Shown one piece after another: positions 33,906 through 51,745 of a stretch of DNA of 64,000 nt (its first letter is position 1; each line of letters opens with the position of its first letter). The DNA is from Fistulifera solaris (Eukaryota; Bacillariophyta; Bacillariophyceae; Naviculales; Stauroneidaceae): assembly GCA_030295235.1 (NCBI GenBank), contig AP026125.1, positions 2,108,001 through 2,172,000 on the forward strand, given 5' to 3'. The position numbers were made by a program, and so were the translations under genes. Under the pieces are notes generated by a model, which searched no databases, was not told where the DNA came from, and saw only the letters and a program-made list of their open reading frames with translations.

Positions 33906-34013
33906 TCCGCGTGTTCTCGTCGGGAAAGAAAAAATGAAAATGACAAGCATAACAAAAAGCTCTTTTATTGTTGCTTGTTAACACTCTTCGTTCTATTCGG
34001 TATTCTTCACACA

Positions 34014-36098
34014 ATGACATCATTACAAAGCAAAGATACCCCTTTATCTGTTCAAGAAGAAGCTTTCTTATACGAAACGGCGCTTATTGACTATCGGAAA
34101 ATTTTACAGACGACAACGACGTCTCCCAATGACACAGCAACAACCAAGGAAGACCGATTTTGCCAACAATTTACCGCTCGCGTCAATTTATTGTGCGCTG
34201 TACACAACAATCCTGTCTTTCGAGAGCGTACTGTACAAGATTTAGAAGAAGAATCGGATTCTTATGCGCAATTAATCGAATCAATCTTTGTTCAGAAATC
34301 ACGTCATAGAAGAAATCAACCACAGCAACTCACTCCTGTCTCGGTCAATGTGGACGGCTTTTTTGAAATGTATCCTGAATGTATGCGAAAATTTGGTGAT
34401 GATGATGATGAGTCAAGTGGGGATGAAGTAGAAGAAATCACCGAACAGCCCGAAGTTGTCGTTATGGAAACCAGCAAAGCGAAACGCATTGCCATTGACA
34501 AACCATATCCTTCGGTCAACAACTACCACCAAAAACCTGCTAACAATCCCTATGCGTCACGCCAGCACACCGAAAGTCATCCGCAAGTTACCAATCCTTC
34601 CTTGCCTTTCATTGAGCATTCTGTATCTCATCAACAACGTCCAGGATCCTGGCAAGATCCTACAACCAAGACGAATGGCACCAGTAGTAGTATTCACAAT
34701 CCATTTCAAACGGCTCGCGATGTATCATTAGCACCAGAGCCGTCGAACAAGACTTCAACTCATCATCAGCCGCAACATGCAAACAACAACAACAATCCCC
34801 CTATTCACTCCTTACCGGAGCACGCAAATGTCAACCATCATTGCACCCACAATCCCTATACGCCGCACAACAACTTTCAATCCACGGCTACTTCCTGGGA
34901 CCAACCTTCGCATGCTCCACCCGCAAATTTTCCGCCCGGTGGATACAATCCCTATCAACACAATTGTCCCAGTTTGTCATCGCCACCGCCACCACCTCCT
35001 ATGGAAATACGAGATTCCCTCAAACGGAAATTTGTACCACCCGTCAAGAGAGGATTGGCGAAAACCGTGCCTAGCGTATCGGATGGAGCGGCTGCCGCCA
35101 AGACCAGTCAAAATAACAAACCCGACAGCGAAAGTGATGATGATTTGCCGGAAGAACTCAAACGATTTGGTAAAGAATTGGTCGAAAAGATTGAATCCGA
35201 AATTATGGATCGTGGTGATCCGGTCACATTTGATGACATTGCCGGTTTGCTGGATGCCAAACAAACGGTACAAGAAGTGGTTTGCTGGCCCATGAAACGG
35301 CCCGATTTATTTACGGGTCTCCGACGGGCACCGAATGGTTTGTTGTTGTACGGACCTCCCGGTACCGGGAAAACGCTGATTGGCAAGGCCATCGCTCACG
35401 AATCGGGGGCTACCTTCTTTTCGATTTCCAGTTCTTCCTTGACCAGTAAATGGATTGGTGAGGGTGAAAAATTAGTTCGAACGCTGTTTGCTGTGGCGGG
35501 TGTACGTGAACCATCCGTGGTTTTCATTGACGAAATTGACTCGTTGTTGACCCAGCGTAAATCCGACGAAAACGAAGCATCGCGACGCATCAAAACGGAA
35601 TTCCTGGTACAACTGGACGGAACCGGAACGAGCGGACGAGGCCGCGTATTGATCATTGGCGCCACCAACCGTCCTCAAGAATTGGATGAGGCCGCCCGTC
35701 GTCGATTTACGAAACGATTGTATATTCCACTTCCCAACGAAGATGATCGAGAACGGTTGTTACGTGTACTACTGGACAACAACAAGCACAGTTTGGTGGA
35801 CAGTGAGATTGTGAAATTGGCCAAAGACACGGATGGTTTCAGTGGAGCCGATCTGAAAGCATTGTCGACGGATGCCGCTATGGGACCGATCCGTGAGTTG
35901 GGTTCTCGGGCGCTGGATGTGAACATTGATGATATTCCTCCGATTGCGTACAAGCACTTCCGGCAGGCCTTGCGTGGAATCAAACCCAGTGTGGCACCGT
36001 CTGATATGATTCAGTATGAAGAGTGGGATAAAACTTACGGCAGCAATCGAAGTCATGGAGAGGAGGGCGATGCCAAGGAAAGTGATGATGAACAATAA
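34014..36098 (+). CDS. FIGNL1: Fidgetin-like AAA ATPase (FIGNL1-type)
   Basis: Single exon, 694 residues from the ATG at 34014. The N-terminal 340 residues are disordered, Asn/His/Pro/Gln-rich. The meiotic-clade AAA module starts near residue 385: SEIMDRGDPVTFDDIAGL, CWPMKRPDLFTGLRRAPNGLLLYGPPGTGKT (Walker A), ATFFSISSSSLTSKWIGEGEKLVRTLF (pore loop), VVFIDEID (Walker B), GATNRPQELDEAARRRF (sensor 1, Arg fingers) and a C-terminal Vps4-type helix. The MDRGDPVTFDDIAGL and SSSLTSKWIGEGEKLVR wording is specific to FIGNL1/fidgetin. FIGNL1 dismantles RAD51 filaments; fidgetins sever microtubules. Expression may be affected by the satellite directly upstream. Confidence 0.85.
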   Translation: MTSLQSKDTPLSVQEEAFLYETALIDYRKILQTTTTSPNDTATTKEDRFCQQFTARVNLLCAVHNNPVFRERTVQDLEEESDSYAQLIESIFVQKSRHRRNQPQQLTPVSVNVDGFFEMYPECMRKFGDDDDESSGDEVEEITEQPEVVVMETSKAKRIAIDKPYPSVNNYHQKPANNPYASRQHTESHPQVTNPSLPFIEHSVSHQQRPGSWQDPTTKTNGTSSSIHNPFQTARDVSLAPEPSNKTSTHHQPQHANNNNNPPIHSLPEHANVNHHCTHNPYTPHNNFQSTATSWDQPSHAPPANFPPGGYNPYQHNCPSLSSPPPPPPMEIRDSLKRKFVPPVKRGLAKTVPSVSDGAAAAKTSQNNKPDSESDDDLPEELKRFGKELVEKIESEIMDRGDPVTFDDIAGLLDAKQTVQEVVCWPMKRPDLFTGLRRAPNGLLLYGPPGTGKTLIGKAIAHESGATFFSISSSSLTSKWIGEGEKLVRTLFAVAGVREPSVVFIDEIDSLLTQRKSDENEASRRIKTEFLVQLDGTGTSGRGRVLIIGATNRPQELDEAARRRFTKRLYIPLPNEDDRERLLRVLLDNNKHSLVDSEIVKLAKDTDGFSGADLKALSTDAAMGPIRELGSRALDVNIDDIPPIAYKHFRQALRGIKPSVAPSDMIQYEEWDKTYGSNRSHGEEGDAKESDDEQ

Positions 36099-36178: not shown

Positions 36179-39100
36179 TCAATGTGTTGCAACGACGAAA
36201 GAAAAAACACGCGCACCGACCGAGCAAATATCCCCGTTGCAAAGTGGAACGCTTCCTTCATCGTAGCTTAGTCGTCTTCCATTTACAGTGACAACATCAT
36301 CAACAGCTAAACAACTCATCTGAAAATCGCTCTCGGGAGTCGGGGCGAATCGAATGCATGCGGACGACTCGCTACAGGTTGCAGGGACGCCTCCTATATG
36401 ACAATCTATTCGTCCAATCGTGCCACCGATAGGTAGAACGCCAAGTCCAAGACGCTGATAGGCGTGCTGCGTTTTCTGGTTAGCACAACCGATCACAGAA
36501 ACTGTCCCTTGAATAACACTGATGAACTTTTCGTTTGCTCCATCCTCGTCGTAGTCCACAACTAGTAGCTGTATTGCTGTCATCAAATACTCTTTAGACC
36601 GAATTCCATTTGTGTCAACAAATGTTTGCAAATCCCATCCGCACGACGCTGGCGACAGCCCGAGGAGCATCGCGATACCTGCACGGTTGATGGATTGATC
36701 TGGTAAACAAGGTCGCGAAACTGGAGGTGCCGGCGACATCAGACTACCGCTATACAATGCATCCCGGGCTCCTTTCAGTCTTTTGGCAGCTATTGCCATG
36801 AGTTCGAGATCGTCAAGGTTTTCGAATTGACCGTTTCGAGATAAAATTGAAGCTCTTGCCACACCTTTAGTGATGATTCCCGTTATGGACTCCTTTAACC
36901 TGGCTGAGACAGTGGTCGAAAGACTTTTCCCTTTCTTTTCCGACAGGACTTTAATTTTCTTTTCGCTTCCCAAATTACCAGTGCTAGATCGTTTTCGTTT
37001 TGGAGATTTTTCGGTCGTCAACGGCAATTCTGGCTTAGCGACATCTGCGTCATCGTCTTTCTTCTTCGTGGGAGTACGTTTCTTTTTTTCGGTAATAAGC
37101 TCGGGAGCAGAAATTTTACCTTCTGCTATGTCTTGCTTTTCACGTTCATAGGCAGCGGCTGCTTCTTCGCCTTCTTTTTGTGCCTGCCTAGTAGCCTCTT
37201 CACCATAAAGGATAAGGTGTGCCCATGCGTAAATGGCAGCTGCGTCCCATTCACTGTCAAATGTCCCCAGGTAATGATTTTGTCCCATAAAAGAAATCTG
37301 ACTCTGCCATCGGTCGTGACCTTTTCTTGCTTGTCGACAAACCCCTCGGTACGCATACACATGTCTCTTTGAATTACCTCCAGTTCTTGACGTTTGGCGG
37401 GGGTCTCGAAGAAGAGGTTTTACATCTGGGGGTAGATCCTTCGCAAACATTGTGAGCGTTTGAACACGTACATTTCAAAATTCAGAAGGCGCTTACCTTG
37501 ATATTGATGACCGAAAGAGCAGGTACGACGTTCGCAGCACTGCCACCGAGGCCACTGGTTGTTGATAGAATGTCTTCATACACGATGCGGCTTCCGTCTT
37601 CGCTGAAGTTACATTCAACATGCTGGTTCTTTTTCCTATTCATTTTGATAATCTCATCGTATTTCCGAGCAGCATCGTCAAGAGCATCAAAAAACAAGAT
37701 GGACTCTTCTCTCTCACTCTCTGTTACCCTTTCCCCGTCGACTTTGATAAAGTGTTTGCCAGTGGGGTTAATCCATACTCCACGGTATCCAGGTACTCTG
37801 ATTGAGCCATCGGGGTCCTTTTCTTCTCCACTTAGTGGCCCCGAATGTGATGGCCCAGGTCTTCCTCCTTTCTTTTTCCCACACCACTCTTTGGACCGCC
37901 ACCTTGCCCTACAGTGGGAGGAGCGCCACTCAAGCCAAGGTTATCACTGTCGTTGGCTACAGCTATTAATGAAAATCACGATATTTGAGGCCAAGTATCA
38001 GTACAAATCACGCATAGTAGTGGATTGATTTTCTACACTTACCTAAGGCGCTAACGCCACACGATCGTTCATGATGGGTTCTCGCCATAGAAGTAACACA
38101 ATCCGTACTGCACGTACGACAAAGCCAAGTTCCAGGAGGGGCATGTAAAGCCGAAACCTGGAACAGCATCACATTGAGAAGCACATAGAATAATGACAGA
38201 AGTTCACATAGACTCTACTCACATGCTGCCGCAGGCCTTGTTCCGACCCAAAGTGTCGTCCGCAACATACAGCCATTCTATATGCTAGTGTTCCCGCTAC
38301 CTGACCACTCGCTCCTGACGATGTAGTCGACGAAGCGGTCGTGACCTCTTCGCACAAATGTCCATGCGTCTGTGATAATTTCATTACATCCAGAATAGGT
38401 TCCAATCTTGCGCTGCCCAACTCATAGCGAAGCCAAGCTTGTTCTAGATTGCTACCGAGCCAATTTAGAGTCCATCGGCGTGATGAAGACACCTTCCCGC
38501 TTGAAACAAACTCCTCATCTGTCACCACGCGTGGTACGGGGCTACTTGCACTTAAATCATCGGATCCTAGACTGCCGGATAGACTTTCTACGGCAATCGT
38601 ATCCATGTTTGTCTCCTCAATGTCCCCGGTATGATGAATTATCATCGAGCGTGCCACGAGTCGCCGAAAGTGATCCATACTATCGGCGTCGCTTGCTATT
38701 CGACTCCTGTCCCATTCTTCACGAACGCAGTCGGCGAAATGAGGCAAAACCAAAGAAACAAGACCAGAAACAGGAACCACTTCTAAATTATTCCTTTGCT
38801 GCGTAGCAAATGTACTCGTAGTGACGACTCGATGACGTGTCGTCAAGCCAACTTTGCCTCTTTCGCTATACTGGCAGGAATACTATCCAGTTGAAAATCC
38901 CACTCTTTGAATATTGGCGTTCCGGCTAACCCGATATGTTGATCGTTCGTGCTAAATATCCCTGTATCCCACAGGCTGTGGATGGAAGAGTTGGTATCGC
39001 TCTGAGCGGCTGCCATGAACCCTACTCCCTGGTCCACGACGGTGATGTCAAAAGGTATCTGGCAAAAATGTAAGTAATCTTTCAGGAAGGTTTTGTATGA

Positions 39101-40375
39101 AGTGATCAACACATGGAAAGGCGAGTCAGAAAGCCCGTTTGCTTGTGGAAAGTATCTCCTCCATTGACGTCGACTACGTCGTGACCCGCCGTAGGGTAAA
39201 GCTCGAAGGGAGCGAGATTCGTTGGCCGTTATAAGCCCTAGATGCTCTTGCACAGTAAGAAACTCTTGTGCATAAAGATCAACCTCTGGCTCCGTAGTGA
39301 TAATCAAATGCGGCCCCATTCGATCTCTCAATATGTCGGCAATGCGTCCATGTCGATTTTTCCAGTCCAAATCCTGATAGATAGCGTGTCCAGCACCTTT
39401 TTCTAAAATACTCAAAAATCGTCCCCGGCACTTGTTCCGCCACCACTCCGTAATCGCCGCATCATTCGGCTGATAAGGAATGGAATGTTCCATTTCGTGG
39501 TCGCTATCGTCGTCGTCACTGATAATCGCTTGATGTCGCTCGCGCCAATCAAAAAGATTCGGCAATTTCAAAAATCCTGACTGTGACTGCGATGCTGCGT
39601 AATCCAGCCTGTTCCGACGCCTTAGATCCGAGCGTCGTATAGCATTTTCAACGACTTGGATCGTCCGTTGACCTAAAGTTTGTGCTTCAATGACCACAGC
39701 GCCTAAATTAATATTGCTCGTCGATTTCTTGCCGATTTCGGGATTCTGAGGTACCGCCAAAATGTCAATATCACTTCCCGGTGTCAAGGCCGTCCAAGCC
39801 ATATTTCCCGCGGCACATAGAATGGCTCTGGAACTTGTGAAACGAAAGTCCAGAGCTGCTGCAGATGAAGCCGGAGTATTGCGGGTAAATTTGGGACCTT
39901 CGGAGGATGCAGGGACAATTGACTCCACGGGAACTTTAGGCGTCGAGGATGTAGTATCCTTTTTAGTTATTTTTTCGTCGGCTTGGGATTCATCCTCTTT
40001 GATGCTTTTCCGTTTCGCGTATTCCTTGTTTTCATGCGATCGACGTAAACAATCGATTCGCTTCTTTTGAAGCTCTTTGTACTCCAGTAACTTATCTGGT
40101 AGCTTGGACGCACAATCTTCGTCTTCTTCATCAACTTGGTCTTTTTCTCCTTTGAGGTATGATTGCTTTTCAATAGCATCAATAAGTGTGGATGCAGCAA
40201 TGTCAAAGATAGAAGGAAGAATGTCTTTCAGTGCCTGCCGTTTGCGCTCGGCTGCTTCGTGATCGAATCGTGTCGAAACCAGAGGTTCCCGCAAAACGGT
40301 TTCTTCCCACAAATCCAGTCGATCATCTTTGAGTTGCTGCGCTGCATCTCGAAGTCTCCAAGGTTTTTCTTCCAT
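36179..40375 (-). CDS. Multi-domain chromatin-type protein: degenerate INO80-like SNF2 lobe, zinc finger, AP2, FHA
   Basis: Coding blocks run 40375-38843, 38846-38223, 38157-about 38045, about 37965-37497 and 37438-36179, with GTGAGT..TCCAG, GTAAGT..AATAG and GTAAGC..GAAG introns. At about 39360-38900 the frame reads LIITTEPEVDLYAQEF, ALPYGGSRRSRRQWRRYF, PFHVLITSYKTFLKDYLHF, DITVVDQG and HIGLAGTPIF, lining up with INO80 motifs Ia-III. Walker A is absent and DEAH is replaced by DQGV. A Cys/His finger (CCGRHFGSEQGLRQH, then WLCRTCSTDC) follows, then an AP2-like YRGVWINPTGKHF repeat, a full AP2 domain (YRGVCRQ..YLGTFDSEWDAAAIYAWAH) and a C-terminal FHA-like domain (LGVLPIGGTIGR..VTVNGRRL). Two frame changes (near 38848 and the T5 run 37873-37877) each need one added base. 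That all blocks form one gene is inference from continuous phase. Confidence 0.6.
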
Positions 40376-40587: not shown

Positions 40588-40616
40588 CCATCGACGATGA
40601 CACGGTAAACTACGAG

Positions 40617-40680
40617 GTACGTGGATTCCACGTAGGCCTCGTAGGGAAATTCTATCGACAGAGGGGGAATCCGGATATTG
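40617..40680 (+). repeat. CTACGTG/CACGTAG element, copy 2
   Basis: Near-perfect palindrome GTACGTGGATTCCACGTAG followed by GCCTCGTAGGGAAAT, TATCGACAGAGGGGG and CCGGATATTG. Same family as the copies at 7426, 40836, 51787 and 52007. Confidence 0.85.
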
Positions 40681-40835
40681 TTCATGTCATACTTTCTCGT
40701 TTATTGGCTCTACAAAAGCCGAACCATAGAAATAGTGTCTCCCACAATAAGCTTAAATAAAATGATCTAGGCATCAACACTCCTGGACTTTCAAACATGA
40801 TTTAAATCAAAAAGATGCGATGACGACTCGAAAGT

Positions 40836-40898
40836 CTACGTGGATTCCACGTAGGCCTCGTAGGGAAATTTATCAACAGAGGGCAAACCCGGATATTA
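40836..40898 (+). repeat. CTACGTG/CACGTAG element, copy 3
   Basis: CTACGTGGATTCCACGTAG, then GCCTCGTAGGGAAATTTATC, ACAGAGGG and CCGGATATT. It lies about 220 bases from copy 2 in the same orientation and about 100 bases upstream of the ORF at 40996. Confidence 0.85.
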
Positions 40899-40995
40899 CT
40901 TCTGTTGGTTTGTCCGTTGTCCGTCAATGTTCATGACACCTCACGTTTTCAATCCGAACTCCGAACACATCGCGTGGTACTGATTTTCTATAGAG

Positions 40996-48499: not shown

Positions 48500-50933
48500 T
48501 TACTCAGCGTCCTCGTCGTCTGGTCCCCCGTCAAAGATCATCGGAAGGTCGTCATCCGATTCGTCACTATCCTCGGCTGACTTCATTTCGCTTGGTTTTG
48601 CTGAAGCAAATGAGATCGGCACCTCCTTTTTCGATGCGGCCGTCTCATCGCGAGAGCTACCAGGGACTACCTCAGCTCCACTCAACTCTACTTTTGCAGC
48701 ACGAGGAACAGGCTCAGCTACTACATGTTTTTGTTGTCTGTCACTATCATTGGGAGTTGGTGCTGATAACAAGGTTTCCTCTTGAATTATCGACTTTGAC
48801 TTTTTGCTAGTCCCCCCTTCATCACTTTCCGGCGTTGATCCTGGCCGTTTTAATGATAAGTTTTCTGGTTGTGCCGTATCCGAATTCATTTGCCCCAAAA
48901 TTGCCCGGCTGAGCATAGAAAACTCAGCATACATGTTTTCATCAACTGGTCTAGATCGAACAACTGACAAAGCTGGTATCCGCGCAAACATTGCCAATTC
49001 GCAGGTGCGCGATCCACCATATGCAGCTTCTGTTCCAGGAACGCCTATTCTTTCGGGCCCATGGACAGCATTTGCGGCTGTCCGTAAGACGTCATGGCTG
49101 AGGGAACTGGAGGCCCCGTCTCTCCACGGAACCTGCGCGCATGCAGATGCGAGTTTGAAAATGTCGCTACATGTTGTTTCCATTTGATGTAACTTCCCTG
49201 TTTTCAATTGTTCCAAACATTCGAATGTGATGCTCTCGATCAAGTTGCGCATGTTGAGCGATAAATATTCCCCCGCTACAATGACAGTTGACGTGAGACA
49301 TCGTGCCGACGCAGTCAAAACGCTGAATCGATCGAGCACAGATCCCCATTCTCCCAAGTCTTTCCCATTGACATTCAGATCGTCTTTACTCAATTTCAAA
49401 GATTCCAAAAGAAAGCCAGAAACATACTGAAGGGATTGTTCTAAATCTCTGGAACATTCCTGAGATTTTTTGCCGTTGGACAGCGTTGATTGTGGATCTG
49501 GTCCACATGTCAAAATTGCTGATCGAAACGAGTCGATGGCAGCAATTCGTGCGGGAATCGACCGGTGCAGCCAACGCCGTCGCGTACCTGTAAATTGCAT
49601 GGCACTGGAGGGGTCCACCACTTGGCGAACCGAAGCAGAACTGGTCGTTCGAAGGCCAGCATGAGCGATTTGATAAATCTTTCTGGTGTAAGAAAGTGGT
49701 GGCGCCATGGCGAGCAATCCATTGAACAAAGAAAGCCCGCTAATGAACACCACATTGGCTACATCCCGAGCAAGAACAATCGTATTTAGCAATCCACCAT
49801 CCAAATACTCGGCACGTAACCGTTTGTTGGTACCATGAAAAGAAGTCTCCGCCGTCAGAGGGAATGTCATCATTGTTTCCACGACTCGCAAAATCAAATC
49901 AACGTTGAATTCGACAACAGTAGATTCCTCTGGCCGTTTCAATAGTTGTACACCCAACACCACCAAACCGTGAACTAAATTCAGAAAACGATGCCCGCGC
50001 TCTGTGTTATCACTTGCCTCACCCAATTGACTAATCCAGATATCCAACAGCCTTTGCATCAATGAATCTTGTTCCAGTGTTTCTTCGTAGACGTTGTTGT
50101 TTCGGTTCGGTTGCACCGTTGGGACAGTGCGCACAAGTACAAGCATCAAGCAGGACATGACCGCATCCAAACGAGGCCCCGAAGGGAGAGCTGTCAACAA
50201 CCGTGCCGCCGCTACTTGCACATTTGACTGGTTGCTGTCAAACAATGTTTTGAATGCCCACTCCCTAAGGTTGTTGAGCAGTTCCGTACTCCGTGCTAGT
50301 TTGATACCAAACAAAGTGACGAGCGCTGCCGCTGATTGCAAAATTGCTTCTCTCATGAGCGATGTTTCCTCATCGTCGATATCATCACTCGGTTTAGCGT
50401 TTGTTTCTACAGTCGCTAATTGTTGCAGCAACTGCTTTCCCAAAGTTCCCATGATTTCGAACGATGCGATAGTACTTGTATCGGGATTCTCGGCCGTACG
50501 AACTGTCTGACAGATAGTATTGATGAGATCCGCCGCTAACGCGACAAGAAGACTGGACTGATGATTGGAATACGAAGAGAGAATACGGAGAATAGCCGAT
50601 ACAATTAATTGTGCATCGACCGTCGGTCCTTGTGACGAGCGTTCGTCGGATTTCGACGACTTGTTTCCTCCTCGTTTTGTACTTTGCGTGGAAGCATTCT
50701 CCAAAACCGTTTGTGCATCGTGATGATTGTGGTAAAATAAAGTCCCTCTTCGACTGATAGTAGAAATGAGGAGTTGCAATGCATCCACCACTGGCTCATA
50801 AAGATCACAATCTTCGATATTCTTTTCGTACAATCGCAAAGACGAAGCACTTCCTGCCCCGTTGGCAACGCGTCTGTGGGAAGAGGAGGTTGAATCATCG
50901 TCATAGATTTTTTTGTGAGACAAACATATCCAT
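48500..50933 (-). CDS. PELP1/RIX1-like HEAT-repeat protein (tentative)
   Basis: A long open frame of alpha-helical repeats (LLVALAADLINTICQTV, LIVSAILRILSSY, VQVAAARLLTALPSGPRLDAVMSCLML) ends in a disordered acidic tail, ..SDESDDDLPMIFDGGPDDEDAE, which recalls the conserved acidic DGGPD ending of PELP1/Rix1 ribosome-biogenesis proteins. That assignment is weak. The open frame continues upstream to 51196, but that extension enters a dispersed repeat. Removing one base from the T7 run at 50908-50914 instead gives an ATG at 50933 with start MDMFVSQKIYDDDS, which I prefer. It is about 810 residues, with no membrane segments. Confidence 0.45.
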
Positions 50934-51124
50934 TCGTTGTATAATATCAAGAGAACGTTGTGTTCTAGATTTGCAAAGAACATGAGCACACGGGTGGAGG
51001 AGGACGCGAAAGAAAGACGCGAAAAAGGGTGCGCGAAAAGTTTGGCCCCGCGGATAATCTGGAATTCCGGATTCCTTTGTGAAAACGTCGCAATGCGCGC
51101 TGCGCGCAAAAGCAACCACCAATA

Positions 51125-51745
51125 ATCCAGTCGTGGATTTGTGAAACCAACAGTTTGGGTCATAGTAAAAACATGTAGGTCAGGATTCGAGAGCATTTGT
51201 GGCCTGAAATTGCAATTGACCGGAATTCCAAGGTTAGCACATAATTAGCTTTAGATCTATTATTGTATTGAGATTATAATCAAACTCGAAGAAGACAACA
51301 AATTCGCGCTGCAGGCTGCATGCAGAAAAGGATTGAAGAAATCCAGTCGTGGATTGGTAGAACCCACAGTTTGGATGATAGTAGAAACATGTGGGTCAGG
51401 GTTCGATAGCATTTTTGGCCTGAAATTGCAATTGACCGGAATTCAAGGTTAGCACATAATTAGCTTTAGATCTATTATTGTAATGCGATTATGATCAGAC
51501 GCGAAAAAGACAACGAATTCGCGCTGCAGGCTGCATGCACAAAAGGATTGATGCAGTCTCATGACAGAAATCCAGTCGTGGATTGGTAGAACATACAGTT
51601 TGGATCATAGTAAAAACATGTAGGTCAGGATTCGATAGCATTTGTGGCTTGTGGCCTGAAATTGCAATTGCGCGGAATTCCAAGGTTAACACATAATTAG
51701 CTTCAGTTCTATCAACGTAATGAGACTATAATCAAACGCAAAAAT
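51125..51745 (+). repeat. Three tandem copies of a ~216-236-bp repeat including hairpin elements
   Basis: Three units begin at about 51128, 51341 and 51567 with AATCCAGTCGTGGATT, then ACAGTTTGG, ATAGTAGAAACATGT, GGTCAGGATTCGATAGCATTT, TGAAATTGCAATTG, and TTAGCACATAATTAGCTT. The third has the full hairpin CATGACAGAAATCCAGTC. The first merges into the upstream end of the PELP1-like open frame. Confidence 0.85.

Follow-up and report, generated by a model that had tools for sequence, protein, structure and literature searches.

A degenerate INO80-type SNF2 lobe and a plant-type AP2 domain in a probable single gene of the diatom Fistulifera solaris

Introduction

Can a chromatin-remodelling ATPase lose its motor and persist as part of a DNA-binding protein? 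The question is raised by a locus of Fistulifera solaris, which has been described as an allodiploid diatom (PMC5935921). The assembly comprises 61 contigs and 51.7 Mb, and the locus lies on its contig C5, within a stretch of 64,000 nucleotides that we refer to as the window and whose positions we use throughout unless a contig is named. Many of the matches that we recovered from this assembly are paired on contigs with neighbouring numbers (C1/C2, C5/C6, C9/C10), and the locus itself has a second copy on C6. A preliminary description had proposed that a catalytically dead INO80-like lobe, zinc fingers, AP2 domains and a terminal FHA domain are encoded here in one protein. To our knowledge, few non-catalytic relatives of remodelling ATPases have been described (MOM1 and Hda2/Hda3), and we know of none with a plant-type AP2 fusion. 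A literature search, judged by titles and the starts of abstracts, returned nothing that describes a diatom protein combining AP2, FHA and SNF2 parts.

Results

The minus strand between positions 40375 and 36179 can be read as a single four-exon gene, with an ATG at 40375 and a stop at 36179, as the preliminary description had placed them. Once the introns are removed and two one-base breaks of the window copy are bridged, the product has 1329 amino acids. Exon boundaries were obtained by aligning the window copy with its homoeologue (C6:2026745-2031214; 90% DNA identity), and all introns have GT-AG ends (Table 1). The homoeologue has the same exon order and is spliced alike, and 1234 of the 1327 comparable residues are identical. 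The proposal of one gene is supported by this second copy, although it needs three introns and, in the window copy as assembled, the two frame breaks.

Four one-base differences break the reading frame, two in each copy, and neither copy is fully open as assembled. The window copy is one base short at about 38855 (exon 1) and at about 37881 (exon 3), where the homoeologue is without breaks. At 40146 the C6 copy carries one base too many, and at 37089 one too few. All four breaks are in, or adjoin, homopolymer runs, at sites that differ between the copies, and comparable one-base differences occur at 35421, within the adjacent AAA+ gene, and at 49466, within the open reading frame at 48503-51244. 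Given the homopolymer sites, the breaks of the same kind in neighbouring genes and the purifying selection that extends across the breaks, we take them to be probable assembly errors; the gene is, in our reading, presumably functional.

All four exons are under purifying selection. Between the copies, dN/dS is 0.119 overall and ranges from 0 to 0.194 across nine segments. The value of 0 belongs to a segment of 99 amino acids around the AP2 domain, in which the copies encode an identical protein and differ by 22 synonymous and no non-synonymous changes. Substitutions favour the third codon position in each of the four exons (first/second/third positions: 36/23/105 in exon 1, 0/0/6 in exon 2, 6/7/21 in exon 3 and 14/14/84 in exon 4), and all six in exon 2 fall there.

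Table 1. Parts of the gene and of its predicted product, in window coordinates
Feature	Coordinates	Strand	Remarks
Whole coding region	36179-40375	-	four exons; homoeologous copy at C6:2026745-2031214
Exon 1	38223-40375	-	N-terminal part, SNF2-like lobe, first half of zinc finger 1
Degenerate INO80-type SNF2 lobe 1	38592-39463	-	aa 305-595 as segmented for dN/dS; in exon 1
SNF2 lobe core	38909-39322	-	aa 352-489; DQGV in the place of the DExx box, aa 448-451
Two zinc-finger-like clusters (C2H2-like, then C2HC-like)	38043-38267	-	residue pattern; split by intron 1
Intron 1	38158-38222	-	65 nt, GTGAGT...TTCCAG; 5 of its 65 bases differ between copies
Exon 2	38043-38157	-	end of finger 1 and C-x2-C...H-x3-C cluster
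Intron 2	37957-38042	-	86 nt; 15 of 84 aligned bases differ between copies, plus indels
Exon 3	37497-37956	-	one base short relative to the homoeologue, in a G run near 37881
AT-hook-like motif GKKKGGRPG	37854-37880	-	from sequence; open in the homoeologue
Diverged AP2-like repeat (YRGVW...FFDALDDAARKYDE)	37653-37793	-	ERF096, E 0.18
Intron 3	37439-37496	-	58 nt; holds ATG 37450
Exon 4	36179-37438	-	AP2 domain, basic linker, C-terminal FHA-like part
AP2 DNA-binding domain	37193-37372	-	WRI1 and TEM1 matches; exon 4
Basic stretches KKKRTPTKKK and PKRKR	36983-37087	-	from sequence only
FHA-like C-terminal region (GGTIGR, CSESSACIRF, VNGRR, LCNGDICSVGARVFSF)	36182-36427	-	unconfirmed

In the N-terminal half of the protein, the first lobe of an INO80-type SNF2 domain survives in degenerate form, without the ATP-binding loop or the DExx box. 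The motifs LRALPYGGSRRSRRQWRRYF, FHVLITSYKTFLKDYLHF, VVDQGVG and LAGTPIF are present in the window copy. Among sequences of PDB chains, the window copy matches INO80 at E 1.7e-05, and INO80 supplies the top 7 of its 10 matches; the C6 copy reaches E 3.6e-06, and INO80 supplies the top 8 of 21. These eight are all the sequences with E < 0.01 for the C6 copy, CHD-type remodellers coming next at about 0.35. The similarity spans 65-67 residues and ends at the motif II position. The Pfam SNF2 family (PF00176) was matched below its cut-off in both copies (E 0.00099 for the C6 copy, 0.093 for a fragment of the window copy) and was absent from the Pfam results for the whole first window open reading frame, even at E 10. 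Profile-profile comparison with SNF2 places of the same genome, using a template from 26 of 30 loci (four were left out because they lacked the selected motif pattern), gave a probability of 94.9% and a score of 58.9, compared with at most 22.5 in 30 column shuffles. This alignment starts at motif Ia and extends to the position of motif II. The INO80-type motifs named in the preliminary description were found, and the match to INO80 is above chance.

The ATP-binding and hydrolysis motifs are missing, as had been stated. Neither copy contains a Walker A motif of the form [AG]xxxxGK[ST], and both have DQGV in place of a DExx box. Pfam scans of the exon pieces, taken to E 10, gave no match to a second RecA lobe (Helicase_C), likewise said to be lacking, although very weak matches may be hidden by HMMER's filters. 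In the pieces scanned Pfam placed no domain above cut-off. A single-sequence structure model of the lobe is uninformative (mean pLDDT 43.6); a fold search with it gave no match at E 0.001 or better and no SNF2 remodeller among the 45 matches listed.

To what subfamily the lobe belongs is less sharply marked. A fungal INO80 segment matched 20 places in the genome, with a SWR1-like pair first (52% identity), the homoeologue of our gene third, a CHD-like pair fourth and fifth, the window copy sixth and 14 places below; the labels SWR1-like, CHD-like and ISWI-like are our presumptive assignments. In two versions of a small tree, ultrafast bootstrap support for grouping both copies with that INO80 fragment is 73% and 43%; for a group that also takes in SWR1-like sequences it is 77% and 82%. 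The copies sit on a long branch. A profile built from the two copies and run against the SNF2 open reading frames of the genome ranked an ISWI-like protein first, and the SWR1-like pair was not among its 8 matches. The DBINO domain had no match in this gene.

An SNF2 profile search, which ignores introns, found 82 places in the genome. We read the motif region in 26 of 30 excised loci, parts of loci L023, L027 and L038, and 13 further stretches, 12 of them over SNF2 places, one of which overlaps the place of the last locus, L035. No canonical INO80 ATPase was seen among the places read, which are part of the 82; by position and score, the other places look like homoeologues or further exons of those read. 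Sequences on C27 and C29, considered as INO80 on account of weak DBINO hits nearby, read as ISWI-like and were dropped. Two pairs of YL1_C proteins are present (C9:107907, C10:123541, C22:295914 and C21:329319), of which we take one to be Swc2-like and the other, which is short, to be Ies6-like. A search for PAPA-1 matched nothing anywhere, its controls included, and is uninformative. Searched by title and abstract start, the literature on INO80 in diatoms yielded nothing describing this protein. In other work INO80 appears as a well-conserved control that is lost in some Ecdysozoa (PMC10538959).

The C-terminal third contains a plant-type AP2 domain, in agreement with the preliminary description. 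It matches WRI1 at E 3.3e-06 with the whole chain and 0.0014 in the best stretch, and TEM1 at E 0.027, though Pfam AP2 does not call it. BLAST with this domain found two places only in the genome, the gene and its homoeologue. The Pfam AP2 profile reports no AP2 domain anywhere in the genome, this gene's included; since it misses this one, diatom AP2 counts made by Pfam may be too low. A tandem second AP2 repeat is not a requirement for every AP2/ERF member. The diverged repeat that had been described ahead of the AP2 domain was not confirmed: its best match among solved structures is a plant ERF (ERF096) at E 0.18, and 10 of 60 shuffles scored as high against the good AP2 domain. As a second AP2 it is only suggestive.

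Other parts may also contribute to DNA binding. Removal of intron 1 brings together the residues of a C-x12-H-x4-H finger (CCGRHFGSEQGLRQH joined to VSALH). The Pfam family zf-C2H2_3rep is matched at E 0.0046, below cut-off; three zinc-finger families and TSTD2_N were matched in Pfam, none reaching cut-off. A zinc-finger pair is plausible on this pattern. The motif GKKKGGRPG is one that we take to be AT-hook-like, and KKKRTPTKKK and PKRKR could be nuclear localisation signals.

The C-terminal region did not bear out the phosphopeptide-binding FHA domain that had been placed there. The order of its motifs (Table 1) presumably resembles that of an FHA domain, whose fold is a beta sandwich. Pfam FHA had no match at E up to 10, and a sequence search of solved structures with the region found no FHA structure. 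Against a profile of the genome's own FHA places (15 of 19, the weakest 4 dropped) the region scored 15.1, and 3 of 40 shuffles scored higher. A model of the C-terminal region has eight strands in its last 76 residues, but its confidence is very low (mean pLDDT 37.1); a fold search with this model gave no match at E 0.001 or better and no FHA structure among the best 50 of 142 matches.

Several features of the surroundings were recorded. A convergent AAA+ ATPase gene lies at 33975-36098 on the plus strand, and the gap at 35421 is a one-base homopolymer gap in its homoeologue; gene models of this assembly therefore need care. Upstream of our gene, at 40590-40920, are two copies of a repeat of about 70 bp around CCTACGTGGAATCCACGTA. 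This repeat has at least 110 matches in the genome, the window site included (40 of 277 candidates were scored), often arrayed at intervals of about 213 or 427 bases. All but 5 of the 110 matches listed are on odd-numbered contigs, which hints that the repeat may be subgenome-specific. Beyond this genome, no relatives of the gene were found in collections of viral contigs and genome contigs, neither of which is diatom-based; this is no evidence of absence.

Discussion

Looking across the entire locus, we lean towards a single working gene, in an allodiploid diatom, that encodes a nuclear, ATP-independent, DNA-binding chromatin scaffold. The AP2 domain, perhaps together with the zinc fingers and the AT-hook-like motif, would guide the protein to certain sites on the DNA. 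The dead lobe would act not as a motor but as a binding surface, either for DNA or for remodelling or histone-modifying partners, and the C-terminal part, if it is an FHA domain, would add a phosphorylation-dependent contact. The preliminary description had suggested a sequence-specific, catalytically dead chromatin adaptor. This fits the anatomy of the gene; the DNA binding and the adaptor role, like the nuclear location, the DNA targeting and the scaffold function, are what we infer from it.

It could be argued that two adjacent genes, one with the INO80-like and zinc-finger parts and a separate one with the AP2 domain, have been misread as one, given that no open frame runs through intron 2 or past the one-base assembly breaks. 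Counter to this, the zinc-finger exon is separated from exon 3 by a gap of 86 nt that has GT-AG ends in both copies. Furthermore, the ATG at 37450, which lies inside intron 3 and opens a listed open reading frame of 423 amino acids, reads ATA in the C6 copy, and the ATG that the C6 copy has near the start of exon 3 corresponds to TTG in the window copy. Because the candidate start codons are not common to both copies, a separate downstream gene is disfavoured, and we consider the two-gene interpretation improbable. We give still less credence to a pseudogene decaying in both subgenomes. The two breaks in each copy would then be real, but the low dN/dS and the strong third-position bias argue against decay, as do the homopolymer positions of the breaks, their different sites in the two copies and their counterparts at 35421 and 49466.

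A further alternative is compatible with the scaffold interpretation and would be a special case of it: the gene may be what remains of INO80, a degenerate orthologue of the ATPase that forms the non-catalytic centre of a reduced INO80-type complex. Arguing for this are the third and sixth ranks of the two copies in the fungal INO80 search, their grouping with INO80 in the tree, the two YL1_C pairs, one of them short and presumably Ies6-like, and the SNF2 places read, none of which looks like a canonical INO80 ATPase. On the other hand, the INO80-specific DBINO domain was not found in the gene, no second lobe was seen, and the tree gives weak support with a long branch. The two-copy profile, moreover, prefers an ISWI-like protein and does not retrieve the SWR1-like pair, and the places read, with their presumptive subfamily labels, are a portion of what an intron-blind search returned. 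We regard this alternative as rather doubtful, if the least so of those considered.

The scaffold that we favour can be set beside several known systems. It shares with the INO80 ATPase the short similarity up to the motif II position, and differs from it in having no Walker A motif, DExx box (DQGV instead), second lobe or DBINO domain, and in its fusion to zinc-finger and AP2 parts. Its AP2 domain matches that of WRI1 among the plant AP2/ERF proteins WRI1 and TEM1, but the similarity is low enough to escape Pfam, and the domain sits in a protein of 1329 amino acids with a dead SNF2 lobe. MOM1, as far as we know, has no AP2 domain. The Arabidopsis chromatin protein is likewise derived from an SNF2 ancestor and its SNF2 helicase motifs are dispensable for function, but it is of CHD3 origin and carries its own CMM2 motif, in contrast to the INO80-type lobe found here (PMC2507757). 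For yeast Hda2/Hda3, SNF2-like domains have been proposed to serve as a DNA-binding scaffold (PMC7062823); those domains are similar to the C-terminal lobe and show no sequence preference in binding DNA, whereas the diatom protein has the N-terminal lobe.

Should the gene indeed yield one protein, it would be a natural case of an ATP motor converted to a DNA-reading scaffold. The gene also raises the testable question of whether diatoms keep any INO80 motor. A bolder extension, which we hold to be unlikely, is that INO80 has been lost as an ATPase in this diatom lineage and persists only as a single dead lobe, joined to AP2 and zinc-finger modules that read DNA sequence. If true, a nucleosome-sliding enzyme would have been turned into the site-specific tether of a motorless INO80-type complex.
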